A stretch of 24,803 bases of DNA from Candidatus Baldrarchaeum yapensis (lineage in GTDB: Archaea > Asgardarchaeota > Baldrarchaeia > Baldrarchaeales > Baldrarchaeaceae), in the NCBI GenBank assembly GCA_016840465.1, contig JAEOSH010000028.1, positions 1 through 24,803 of the forward strand. Direction: 5' to 3'. Below the pieces are notes generated by a model. That model ran no database searches. It had not been told where the DNA came from and saw only the letters and a program-made list of their open reading frames with translations. This document shows positions 1-10,746 of this stretch, in pieces. The position numbers and the translations under genes were made by a program. Position 1 is the stretch's first letter. Every line of letters begins with the position of its first letter.

Positions 1-19
1 AGATGTGTATAAGAGACAG
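1..19. other. Nextera/Tn5 mosaic-end adapter sequence (artefact)
   Basis: The first 19 bases, AGATGTGTATAAGAGACAG, are exactly the Tn5 transposase mosaic end used in Nextera-type sequencing libraries. It sits at the very edge of the window. It is residual adapter, not genome. Translating through it gives the spurious N-terminus MCIRDS. Genomic sequence should be taken to start at about base 20. Confidence 0.97.
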
Positions 20-1796
20 CGCCCCTGTTGTGCCGATCTCTGCAAAAATGAAGTGGGGAATAGAGGAACTCCTAAGTGAAGCAATTGCACATATAAAAGC
101 GAAAAGGGGAAAGGATAAGAGAATCGTAGTTTTGGGGCATGAGAGAAAAACGGGTATAGGGCAGGTTTTTCTCCTCTCGATTAGAGGGGGGACCATACGA
201 GAGGGGGAGGAATTAGGGCCTGTGAAAATAAGGGCGATATATGATCTTAGCATGAGGAGGAAGGGGGAAGCAAGAGCAGGGGAAATAGTATATGCGTCCA
301 TGATGGGCGAGGTGGCCGTCGGCACGGAAATCCTAGCGGACGGAACAATAAGGAAATCTGAGATATTTACCGAGGACATTTATCCCTCGAAGGTATTTAA
401 ACTGTCTCTCGATGCTGAAGGTCTCCAAAAGGCAATGAAAGTACTGGAGGGATTGTCAGGCGAAATTCATGGGTTTAAAGTGGAAAGAATCGATGGAGGC
501 CTCCAAATAAGCGTGCTTGGAGATATGCAAATGAAATACATAGAGGATGCGTTATCAGAGGCTGGGATCTCCTTCAAAATAGTAAGTGAGCGAAGAAAGG
601 GAATAGTCACTGTAGCGGGGCGTGGAGAGGCCCATGTTGGCACCGCTCATGTAGAAGTGCTTCCCAGAACGGTACCGAGGATAATAGTCACTCGATACGA
701 TTATGATGTGACTATGGATTTCGACTGGGTTACAGCATCTACCGTTGCCGACGCTTTGGGAATAGAGGGAATGCTCGTCATCATCCACCGTGGCGAGAAC
801 CCAGATGATCTTGCTGAGGCAATAGCAAAAGCAGTAGAAAAGGCAGGGTTAATGGAGGTATTTCCTCAAGGAAATGTTGTGGTGAGAACCCCAAAAGTTT
901 CGGAAATCATAAAGCTAACCTATGCGCATGGAGGGCAGATTCTTGAAAGTCGAGAGAACTCGCTGTGGATTTTATTACCAACATTTGAGTTAGACTCATT
1001 TGTCGATGAAGTATACTCGGTAACGGCCGGAAAAGTGGAGGTAAAGTTGATAGTACCGCCAAAGGAGGCAATCTTAGGCATTGACCCTGGTACAAAGCAT
1101 GTTGGCCTAGCTTATATTCAGGGAAGCACTGTAGAGGTTTGGCATATAAACTTTCCACAACCCCTCACCGAAAGGAAGAGTCAGCAGGCAATGATGTCGA
1201 AGTTCGTGAGGGAATTAAGACTATTCCTCGAAGGGAAAGATAAACCAACTAAGGTATTCATAGGGCTGGGTCCAGGTCTCAAATACGCCTATGAGGCGGT
1301 ACAAAGAGTCTTAGGAGATAGTATCAATGTATTCGGCGTAGATGAGACATGTACGACGAAAGAAGCATTATATCTAATATCGAGCGGTAAAATATTGGCG
1401 AAGAGATTTAAGGGAATTGTGGACCACGCTTACGCGGCGGTATTGATAGCAAAACATCGGCAGGTCGTTGGGAAGATAATGAGAGTGAGGCACGCAAGAC
1501 GTAAACTTGAAACATACATAGCATCGCATTCCCTGATAGGCTACATGTTCAAGAGGCTTGCTGGCGTGCATACGCTTCGAGATCTCAGGCCTGGAACCTA
1601 CATTGAAGTTAAAGATCCATCATATATAGACGGAAAAGTGTCAAAGGGCGATGTCTTCATATATTGGGGATTAACTAAAAATGGCGTGCTTGTACATACG
1701 CTTGCCGGATGCAGAATGGTCCTGCGCTGGAAAGCAGGAGTGCATCCAGAAAGGGATTTCTTTAAAGCGTTTAGCCCGGTAAAGCCAAGAACCTAA
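20..1796 (+). CDS. Translation-GTPase-like protein fused to YqgF/RuvC-type RNase H fold (5' truncated)
   Basis: The reading frame is open from the left edge, so the N-terminus is missing and the first codons are adapter. The visible protein (about 591 residues) starts with VVPISAK, which looks like the G5 (SAK) motif and last helix of a translational GTPase. It is followed by a domain-II-like beta-barrel containing TGIGQVF and GGTIREGEEL, as in the EF-Tu/SelB/IF2 class. A domain-III-like region and an unassigned alpha/beta region follow (about 135-355, counting from base 3). Residues 358-480 look like a YqgF/RuvC RNase H fold: GIDPGTKHVG with Asp361, VDETCTTKEA with Glu448 and VDHAYAA with Asp474, the usual D-E-D carboxylates. 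The last 110 residues are basic then beta-rich and unassigned. By family knowledge YqgF proteins are nucleases in rRNA maturation or resolvases. A link between ribosome function and RNA or DNA cleavage is inference. The GTPase part is only partly visible, so its subfamily is uncertain. Confidence 0.7.
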
Positions 1797-9081: not shown

Positions 9082-9379
9082 ATGAAAATGGAGAAGATGA
9101 TGAAAGTTGGCAAAGTTGCGAAAATCTTGAACGTCAGTAGCACACTGTCCTGAACCGGATCAGGAAGGGTAAAATAAGAGCGTTGAGGCTCCCGGCGGGC
9201 GGTACTGGATCCCAGAGTCGGAGGTGCGGAGGATACTTGAGGGCGGAGGCGAAAAAGGCGTACGCGGTCCCGATAGATGATCCCCCGTAGATCTCATCTG
9301 GGACTACTTCGAAACAAGGAGGAGGGCACTGGAGGAAATCCTGAGGCACGTGAAGCGCTCGAAGAGCGGGAAGGCCTAA
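9082..9379 (+). pseudogene. Frameshifted MerR-like HTH gene of IS607-type element (orfA)
   Basis: From ATG 9082 one frame reads MKVGKVAKILNVSS, the first helix-turn-helix segment of a MerR/excisionase-type DNA-binding domain. The continuation is in other frames: HTVLNRIRKGKIRALRLP from about 9140, then RYWIPESEVRRILEGGGE from about 9196, together matching the orfA N-terminus of IS607-type transposons (TVxRWIRxGKIxAxRxxGGxxRIPESEI). A tail VDLIWDYFETRRRALEEI ends at TAA 9379. The serine-recombinase domain that normally follows is absent. At least two frameshifts and stops make this non-functional. It lies immediately upstream of a tnpB fragment, which supports the transposon assignment. Base composition becomes clearly GC-richer from about 9130. 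Confidence 0.65.
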
Positions 9380-9401
9380 CCCGAAGCCCGGCAGGGAGAG
9401 A

Positions 9402-9527
9402 AGGAGGCTGAGAAACGAACTCCTCAAAGACTGGGGGTACGCAAAACACCACGTCGACTCCGCAATAAACCTGCAATCGGGCCCATGAAGGGCCGGATCT
9501 CCCTCCTCAAGAGAGGCAGAGCGAAGG
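9402..9527 (+). pseudogene. tnpB: TnpB (transposon-encoded nuclease) internal fragment
   Basis: The frame from 9402 reads RRLRNELLKDWGYAKHHVD followed by SAINLQSGP, then after a frameshift near 9485 KGRISLLKRGRAK. This resembles the N-terminal third of archaeal TnpB proteins (W.YAKHHVDSAIN...KGW..LY.RGRAK). The true N-terminus and the RuvC-like catalytic two thirds are missing. The homology stops at the left inverted repeat of the next insertion sequence, so that element probably inserted into this gene. Nothing on the far side of the insertion resembles the rest of TnpB, so a deletion or rearrangement also occurred. Confidence 0.6.
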
Positions 9528-9547
9528 GAGCCCACCAAAAGGTTGTC
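9528..9547 (+). repeat. Left terminal inverted repeat of the insertion sequence
   Basis: GAGCCCACCAAAAGGTTGTC. It matches the reverse complement of 10564-10583 at all 20 positions. Inside this the two ends share scattered further matches. Confidence 0.9.
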
Positions 9548-9566
9548 CTTTGTCAAACCCTACACC

Positions 9567-10459
9567 TCAATCACCCCCGCCACCTATCCGCACAAAGAGG
9601 CCGGCCAGCGCCTCCAGCATCAGCATCCGCCTAACGTTGTGCGCCGCCCCACGCTCACCGTTCTTCCCTGCGATACCTCCGGGCCGAGAAACCCCCGGCC
9701 GCCCCCGGCGGAGAATGCGACACGAAAACACGCGCGACGGCCTCACCTGAAAGTCGATGCCCCTCCGAAACGCCTTCACGCAGTTCTCCCTCACGAAAAA
9801 CTCGCCATCCGCGTAGAGAGTCGAACCACGCGGAAGCACACCCATGGCCTCCGAGATGTCCCGCGACCGCGTCGCCCGCGCAAACGCGAACATGTACACC
9901 CCTATGTCGTAGATGAACTTTATGTCGACAGCGGGCCTCGAAAGCACGCCCCTGCCCCTCACAACCCTCTCCTCAAGAAATCCCGCCGAAACGGTGGTTC
10001 CGTCCCCAACGAACTCCTTAACGCCATCGCACCCCGAGAGATCCCAGATGAGGCGATGCCCCGATCTCTCAACCAGTTTAGGAACTCCAAGATTCACTGC
10101 CGGAGGCGGGGGTTCCTATAGTGGTAGCGCAACGTCTCCGCGGTCGGGACCCCGTGCTTCGCGTCGCCGGAAATTCTCATGTCGATCTCGGCCTCGATTG
10201 CGCGCCCCCTTATACTCTCGAAGTTGATGGGCTGTGGGGACATTTCCTTCAGGATCAGGAGGGCTACCACCATAAGCCTGTCGTACTTCGGGCGGGCGTG
10301 TGGGCTCGAGGGTGGCGCGTGTGTTTTCGAGAACTCCCTGAGGAGGCGGAGTGCGGTTTTAAAGGAGAGGGGTTTGCGGAGCAGGAGGAGAGCGTTGCGT
10401 CCATGCGGGACGTTTATATGCTGATGCTCACAACAGTAGTACTGGGCGTGGCCGGACAT
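9567..10459 (-). pseudogene. DDE transposase in two frames
   Basis: The upstream frame (10459-10094, 121 residues) starts at ATG 10459 after GGAGG and contains YYCCEHQHI, a possible zinc-binding motif, then a helical region (PKYDRLMVVALLILKEMS, TAETLRYHYRNP). It ends at TGA. The downstream frame continues from about 10100 to 9567 and carries the catalytic core: GDGTTVS (Asp32 counted from GTG 10097), LYADGEFF (Asp97) and NVRRMLMLEALAG (Glu162), the D-D-E triad with the usual C-terminal Asn/Glu helix. The frames are joined by a -1 shift, and a run of five C bases (minus strand AACCCCCG, just before the stop) is a natural slip site. Either programmed frameshifting or a single-base loss explains this. 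Total length of about 297 residues suits a 1-kb element. Confidence 0.7.
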
Positions 10460-10563
10460 CAGGCATCCTCCTGTCAGTTGGTTTGTCGGGTAGTATTACG
10501 ATGCCAGCCGTGCCCTTCTACTGTTTTGCATACTTGTCATAGACAATCATTAGCTTGGCAAGA

Positions 10564-10583
10564 GACAACCTTTTGGTGGGCTC
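10564..10583 (-). repeat. Right terminal inverted repeat of the insertion sequence
   Basis: GACAACCTTTTGGTGGGCTC, a perfect reverse complement of the left end at 9528-9547. Confidence 0.9.
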
Positions 10584-10746
10584 GGGGAACATAGTGATAT
10601 TAGATGTAACAACGGATCTTTTAGAGATCTTTAGAACGATCAACACGTATAAGGTTCTGATAAAGTTAACTGAAATGCTCATCGAGCGTGAGTGCGGCGT
10701 CGTAGTGATGCTGAATAGGAACCTGAAGAAAAGGACATTAGGGTGA
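10584..10746 (+). pseudogene. 3' gene fragment, possibly RecA/KaiC-like
   Basis: After the insertion sequence a frame of about 53 codons reads NIVILDVTTDLLEIF, then TYKVLIKLTEMLIERE and CGVVVMLNRNLKKRT before TGA 10746. The hydrophobic strand ending in Asp, the helices and the second strand resemble the Walker-B region and next strand of RecA/KaiC-like ATPases, but there is no diagnostic motif. Its composition is AT-richer than the insertion sequence, like host genes. It is probably the 3' end of a host gene whose front was lost when the mobile elements inserted and recombined. It could instead be a very short gene starting at GTG near 10591, but no ribosome binding site supports that. Confidence 0.4.

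Follow-up and report, generated by a model that had tools for sequence, protein, structure and literature searches.

Seven subfamilies of translational GTPases are all that a 2015 survey recognized in archaea, and the same survey described clostridial Tet proteins that carry a YacP-like NYN RNase domain, for which a function was only proposed (Atkinson 2015, PMC4342817). Among nucleases of the RNase H fold, YqgF of Escherichia coli is known to mature 16S precursors (PMC6943124), and the GTPases LepA and BipA are named in RefSeq as 30S/50S biogenesis factors.

The DNA analyzed here (the window) is a whole contig of 24,803 bases (C49) from the 2.27 Mb genome of an Asgard archaeon, which belongs to the phylum of Candidatus Lokiarchaeota. 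At its start lies a gene in which an EF-G-like GTPase is joined to a YqgF/RuvC-like nuclease, and this fusion is real, as three archaeal lineages with deep separation between them all keep it within a single gene. An earlier note on this DNA had read the gene as a translation GTPase fused to a YqgF/RuvC nuclease, and intact motifs, an RNase H fold and a shared architecture support that reading as a whole.

Extent of the truncated gene

The frame from nt 3 to nt 1796 is open and comprises 597 aa according to the ORF list, so that its description as uninterrupted was correct. The first 19 nucleotides are exactly AGATGTGTATAAGAGACAG, a 19-nt match that occurs within the window at position 1 only and that we take to be the Tn5/Nextera mosaic end. 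Because nt 1-19 are adapter, the ATG at nt 3 and the residues MCIRDS are artefacts. The frame is open at nt 20, where the earlier note had placed the start, but real coding begins at about nt 21, which is also where the frame starts. Residues are numbered here without the adapter, which gives values lower by 6 than a count from the ATG at nt 3 (Table 1).

The gene runs off the contig start, and the window copy therefore lacks most of the G domain and possesses only G5 of the motifs G1-G5; 591 residues are present, and roughly 145-150 N-terminal residues are missing. Recovery of this N-terminus from other contigs had been suggested, and a search for it found no matching piece elsewhere in the window's genome. 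GTP_EFTU matches in this genome (n=17) were considered as the lost part, and among the matches listed, which are EF1A, two EF-2, IF2-gamma, aIF5B, a GTPBP-like protein and small GTPases, none fits.

Table 1. Features of the fusion gene and of the contig end (positions in the window; residue numbers without the adapter)
Feature	Position (nt)	Strand	Basis
Presumed Tn5/Nextera mosaic-end adapter	1..19	none	exact 19-nt match; gives false start MCIRDS
5'-truncated EF-G-like GTPase / YqgF-RuvC-like nuclease fusion gene	21..1796	+	open frame; colinear with complete homologues
End of G domain including G5 SAK motif (nt 39-47)	21..92	+	alignment to complete homologues
Domain II, EF-Tu/EF-G type beta-barrel, boundaries approximate	93..344	+	EF-G_D2 in Methanopyrus homologues; NCBIfam EF-G
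EF-G/EF-2-type domains III and IV, mutual boundary not exact	345..866	+	model of homologue L034 compared with EF-2
EF-G domain V-like region	867..1052	+	weak Pfam EFG_C in Methanopyrus homologues; hhalign
YqgF/RuvX/RuvC-like RNase H domain (predicted)	1056..1454	+	Pfam RuvX; carboxylates; Foldseek; E. coli YqgF alignment
D355	1083-1085	+	
E442	1344-1346	+	
D468	1422-1424	+	
Conserved C-terminal domain, mostly beta, FF..F.P motif	1512..1793	+	present in all complete homologues

Some further observations concern the same genome. Two divergent EF-2 paralogues (G000:C94, L092, and G000:C32, L093) are encoded besides the fusion, and according to the ORF list, long ORFs overlap on both strands of the window at 9134-10594, perhaps a degenerate transposase. 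In the aIF5B gene (locus L095, on the minus strand of G000:C67 at about 54.1-54.75 kb), AGGI and TQHIGA are separated by an insert of 30 nt that includes two in-frame stops. This insert folds as a bulge-helix-bulge (z -3.96) with a 6-bp outer helix, a 4-bp central helix and the 3-nt bulges UAA and AGA, and if each bulge were cut behind its second base, AGGITQHIGA would be restored. It is likely a mini-intron in a protein gene.

The GTPase half

Both elements on which the first reading of this half had been based, a G5-like SAK motif and an EF-Tu-type beta-barrel, are present in the window protein. Barrel and nuclease follow in this order in one frame, as proposed, but EF-G/EF-2-type domains III and IV and a domain V-like region lie between them. 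In the complete homologues the motifs G1-G5 read AGHxxxGKSSL, G-T in switch I, D-PGH, T/NKMD and SAK, with TAGH in place of D-PGH in two Lokiarchaeal copies, and GTP_EFTU scores above its cut-off (E up to 1.6e-42). The NCBIfam EF-G match covers residues 20-141 of the window protein, and Pfam EF-G_D2 reaches 30.7-47.9 bits in the Methanopyrus homologues, against a cut-off of 27.

The full-length AlphaFold model of a complete Lokiarchaeal copy was built from four input sequences and has a pLDDT of 49.8, which makes it usable for domains III-IV only. Residues 265-431 of the model of homologue L034, which correspond to these domains, align with EF-2 (5h7j; Z 12.9, rmsd 4.2, 164 residues aligned) and also with EF-G, LepA and Snu114, with Z of 11-13 overall. 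For domain V, EFG_C matches the Methanopyrus homologues weakly and below the cut-off (E 0.01-0.04), and hhalign of the fusion family against E. coli EF-G spans domains III-V with an E of 0.023.

Every named-subfamily equivalog model of NCBIfam (EF-G, aEF-2, IF-2/aIF5B, SelB, LepA, TypA, RF3 and Tet) remains far below its cut-off, with 152 of 424 bits for IF-2 and 64 of 738 for aEF-2. A G-domain tree placed bacterial IF-2 nearest, and as this placement is weak and long-branched, the tree was not used for family assignment. The fusion looks like an archaeal subfamily of translational GTPases that is so far undescribed. In the open-access PMC literature no description of it was found, and the Methanopyrus kandleri gene may be described beyond that scope.

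The nuclease half and the C-terminal domain

The stretches GIDPGTKHVG, VDETCTTKEA and VDHAYAA, in which the earlier note had seen the three carboxylates of YqgF/RuvC nucleases (its Asp361, Glu448 and Asp474), are all present, and their acids become D355, E442 and D468 once the adapter is subtracted. These three are invariant in all homologues that reach the nuclease domain, and T445, T446, K447, E448 and H469 are likewise invariant across the window, Lokiarchaeal and Methanopyrus versions. Pfam RuvX (PF03652) scores 28.1 bits on residues 350-476 for the window alone and 33.6 bits with neighbors, against a cut-off of 29.2, and the homologues score lower; the Pfam RuvC model matches just one member of 15, with E 0.048. 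As there is a RuvX match and the same residues recur in two other deep lineages, the motif pattern is not due to chance. In a whole-length comparison of the fusion profile with E. coli YqgF, the pairs DPGT/DFGT, DE..TTKEA/DERLSTVEA and VDHAYAA/VDSASAV fall in register, the background being 0.05 or worse in E for unrelated E. coli proteins.

An AlphaFold model of the RNase H and C-terminal part of the window protein alone has a mean pLDDT of 68.4, with low values in the second half of the nuclease domain; they fall below 50 in the section that holds the third acid and in the latter half of the active site. The predicted order of elements in the nuclease, bbb-a-b-a-b-a, is that of RNase H, with strands at 10-16, 20-27 and 30-37 followed by alternating helices and strands. 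Foldseek retrieves RuvC (4ep5), E. coli YqgF (1nmn) and RuvX (7ess) with probabilities of 0.98-1.00 and low TM, and VIA-align gives Z 8.3 for RuvC (4ld0) and Z 8.4 for Pelota; eRF1, Tex and Spt6 are among the structure matches as well. With fold matches at Z about 8, we think with moderate confidence that the nuclease half, with its three carboxylates, adopts an RNase H fold, as had been anticipated from the motifs. In profile searches, neither the nuclease alone nor the C-terminal domain alone significantly matched any PDB sequence, and a single-sequence PDB search found nothing.

The nuclease had been described as following the GTPase, which is the case, but beyond it the protein continues with another conserved domain, which has about 95 aa. 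This domain is conserved in all complete homologues, and its pLDDT is mostly 80-90 in the model.

Distribution and gene neighborhood

A single-sequence search led to a first homologue in one Lokiarchaeal genome, which is 28-32% identical and forms an uninterrupted ORF of 776 aa. A profile search of 227 genomes of the phylum found the fusion in 15 Lokiarchaeal genomes, i.e. 15 of about 65 genomes of that family (f3), with 14 complete copies and one that is cut by a contig end (G168). Within this search no other family was positive except the window's own, and the genomes of the same order (G001-G003) contained none. When a profile of the nuclease and C-terminal part was used in a survey of about 390 archaeal genomes, the same architecture was found in the cultivated methanogen Methanopyrus, where all five genomes carry the fusion as one gene, one of them being a single chromosome of 1,694,969 bases, presumably Methanopyrus kandleri AV19. 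The occurrence of this architecture in related genomes, which the earlier note had named as support for its reading, is borne out. Uninterrupted homologues have about 735-780 aa with the whole architecture in one gene, and in all homologues the two halves form a single ORF instead of separate genes.

A profile from domain III to the C-terminus, applied at 1e-5 to 393 Methanopyrus-centred genomes (251 genera), retrieved only the five Methanopyrus genomes and one Lokiarchaeal genome. The two archaeal surveys, each of about 390 genomes with sets that may overlap, revealed no further copy and no split halves; pattern scans of genome contigs are weakly sensitive. RuvX matches in two other Asgard genomes turned out to differ from the fusion, one being a Tex protein and the other a small RuvC-like protein that stands alone. 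In plasmids and phages only ordinary LepA/IF-2 occurred among the matches listed, plasmids gave no match to the nuclease part, and viral contigs gave no match. Pairwise identity among the versions from the window, Lokiarchaea and Methanopyrus is about 28-35%, and each of the three lineages is set apart by a long branch of about one substitution per site.

In Lokiarchaea the gene is found near a glycerol-dehydrogenase-like oxidoreductase/DUF1667 block, a dual-specificity phosphatase gene and a zinc-ribbon gene. As it keeps its position near the same neighbors, vertical inheritance with losses is suggested in this family. The phosphatase gene adjoins or lies near the fusion in most Lokiarchaeal loci (e.g. 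L068:10680-11132), with two copies in L071. In Methanopyrus the neighbors are dCTP deaminase-like and beta-lactamase-fold genes, and neither the Lokiarchaeal nor the Methanopyrus loci contain neighbors linked to the ribosome.

Proposed function and alternatives

Among the readings considered here, a GTP-gated nuclease that acts on the ribosome or its precursors is the most likely one. The body is an EF-G/EF-2-like GTPase of probably five domains (G, II, III, IV and a V-like region), followed C-terminally by a YqgF/RuvX/RuvC-type RNase H nuclease with an apparently intact D-E-D metal site and by the small extra domain. The GTP form may dock at the factor-binding site of the ribosome or a subunit, as EF-G, LepA and BipA do, and docking or GTP hydrolysis would place the nuclease on nearby RNA, which it could then cut by two-metal catalysis. 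That the fusion is a GTP-dependent, ribosome-associated nuclease seems to us an evenly balanced proposition. The target would most likely be rRNA, e.g. a precursor end late in subunit maturation, and rRNA is favored because the YqgF of bacteria is a 16S rRNA maturation enzyme and because LepA and BipA, both EF-G-like, act in the biogenesis of the subunits; as a specific substrate assignment it is tentative and rather doubtful. Several points count against a ribosome nuclease, namely the patchy distribution, which is odd for a core biogenesis step, the gene neighbors without ribosome link, and the low pLDDT both of the full-length model and of the latter half of the modelled active site.

In view of the patchy distribution, a role in rescue or stress is conceivable as well. 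As a factor of ribosome quality control, the fusion would enter the A site, as EF-G does, on ribosomes that have stalled, and the nuclease would cut mRNA or A-site tRNA. An EF-G-like body should be able to reach the A site, and a distribution that makes the gene look dispensable is more to be expected of a rescue or stress factor than of a core one, but no rescue genes are found among the neighbors and we know of no YqgF-type domain that cuts mRNA on ribosomes, so that this explanation appears unlikely. It is still less probable that the RNase H domain has lost catalysis and functions in the EF-G-like GTPase as an RNA- or protein-binding module, comparable to the YqgF domain of Tex/Spt6 or the RNase H-like domain of eRF1/Pelota. 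RNase H-fold domains without nuclease activity do occur in translation factors (PMC6514570), and Pelota, eRF1, Tex and Spt6 are all among the structure matches; however, none of the three lineages shows any change in the three carboxylates or in the TTKEA and DH..A motifs, and the strand-1 acid that is missing in eRF1/Pelota (PMC6514570) is kept.

The matched Pfam family is named Holliday junction resolvase, and RuvC and RuvX are among the structure matches, which would agree with a GTP-switched Holliday-junction or structure-specific DNA nuclease on a borrowed translation-GTPase body. As EF-G-type domains II-V have no DNA role to our knowledge and no repair genes were recognized beside the fusion, we consider such a DNA enzyme very improbable. 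A merger of two adjoining genes by mis-assembly, annotation or contamination, which the position of the window copy at a contig end with adapter sequence might suggest, is practically out of the question and already refuted, because independent genomes share the single ORF (14 complete Lokiarchaeal copies on contigs of up to 700 kb and five Methanopyrus genomes, one a single-contig chromosome), and the window contig carries archaeal GatD/GatE.

The full proposal is that Asgard archaea and Methanopyrus have kept an eighth subfamily of archaeal translational GTPases, which would be a ribonuclease gated by GTP and activated by the ribosome; in our view it stands just short of an even chance. If it is true, archaea possess a further subfamily beyond the seven, with a built-in nuclease, and GTP-controlled RNA cleavage on ribosomes could be tested directly in lineages near the origin of eukaryotes. 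M. kandleri appears to hold the gene in complete form (L062:7464-9689), so that its product can be expressed and tested in assays.

Comparison with known systems

With EF-G/EF-2, LepA, BipA and Snu114 the fusion shares the G domain with G1-G5, domain II and an EF-G-like arrangement of domains III and IV, which a domain V-like region follows. It differs from them by a short domain IV and by the added nuclease and C-terminal domain, and it scores far below every curated subfamily cut-off. The motifs D...DE-x-TT-x-EA...vD-x-xxA and the RNase H topology are shared with YqgF/RuvX (PF03652); YqgF, with about 140 aa, forms a protein by itself and was found only in those of 14 control genomes that are bacterial, whereas the domain of the fusion sits within an archaeal GTPase and its sequence score is borderline.

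Among the proteins compared, the best profile match of the fusion nuclease is the archaeal stand-alone YqgF/RuvC-like protein L119 (hhalign E 2.2e-6), ahead of RuvC (1.5e-4) and YqgF (1.4e-3). Such proteins (e.g. L119 in genome G012) are encoded by separate genes and have about 200-310 aa and no GTPase. They occur in 88 of 293 archaeal genomes, in some of them alongside the fusion (e.g. G130, G131, G157 and G162). The acidic motifs are kept in the stand-alone protein at L119:1180-1851.

The clostridial Tet-NYN fusion is the only precedent found. It, too, consists of an EF-G-like translational GTPase to which an RNase domain has been added, but it belongs to the bacterial Tet subfamily and its RNase has an NYN (PIN-like) fold instead of RNase H. 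A related fold in a ribosome-acting factor is the RNase H-like domain of eRF1/Pelota (Z about 8), where the GTPase partner is a separate protein and the strand-1 acid is absent (PMC6514570), whereas the fusion keeps all three acids.
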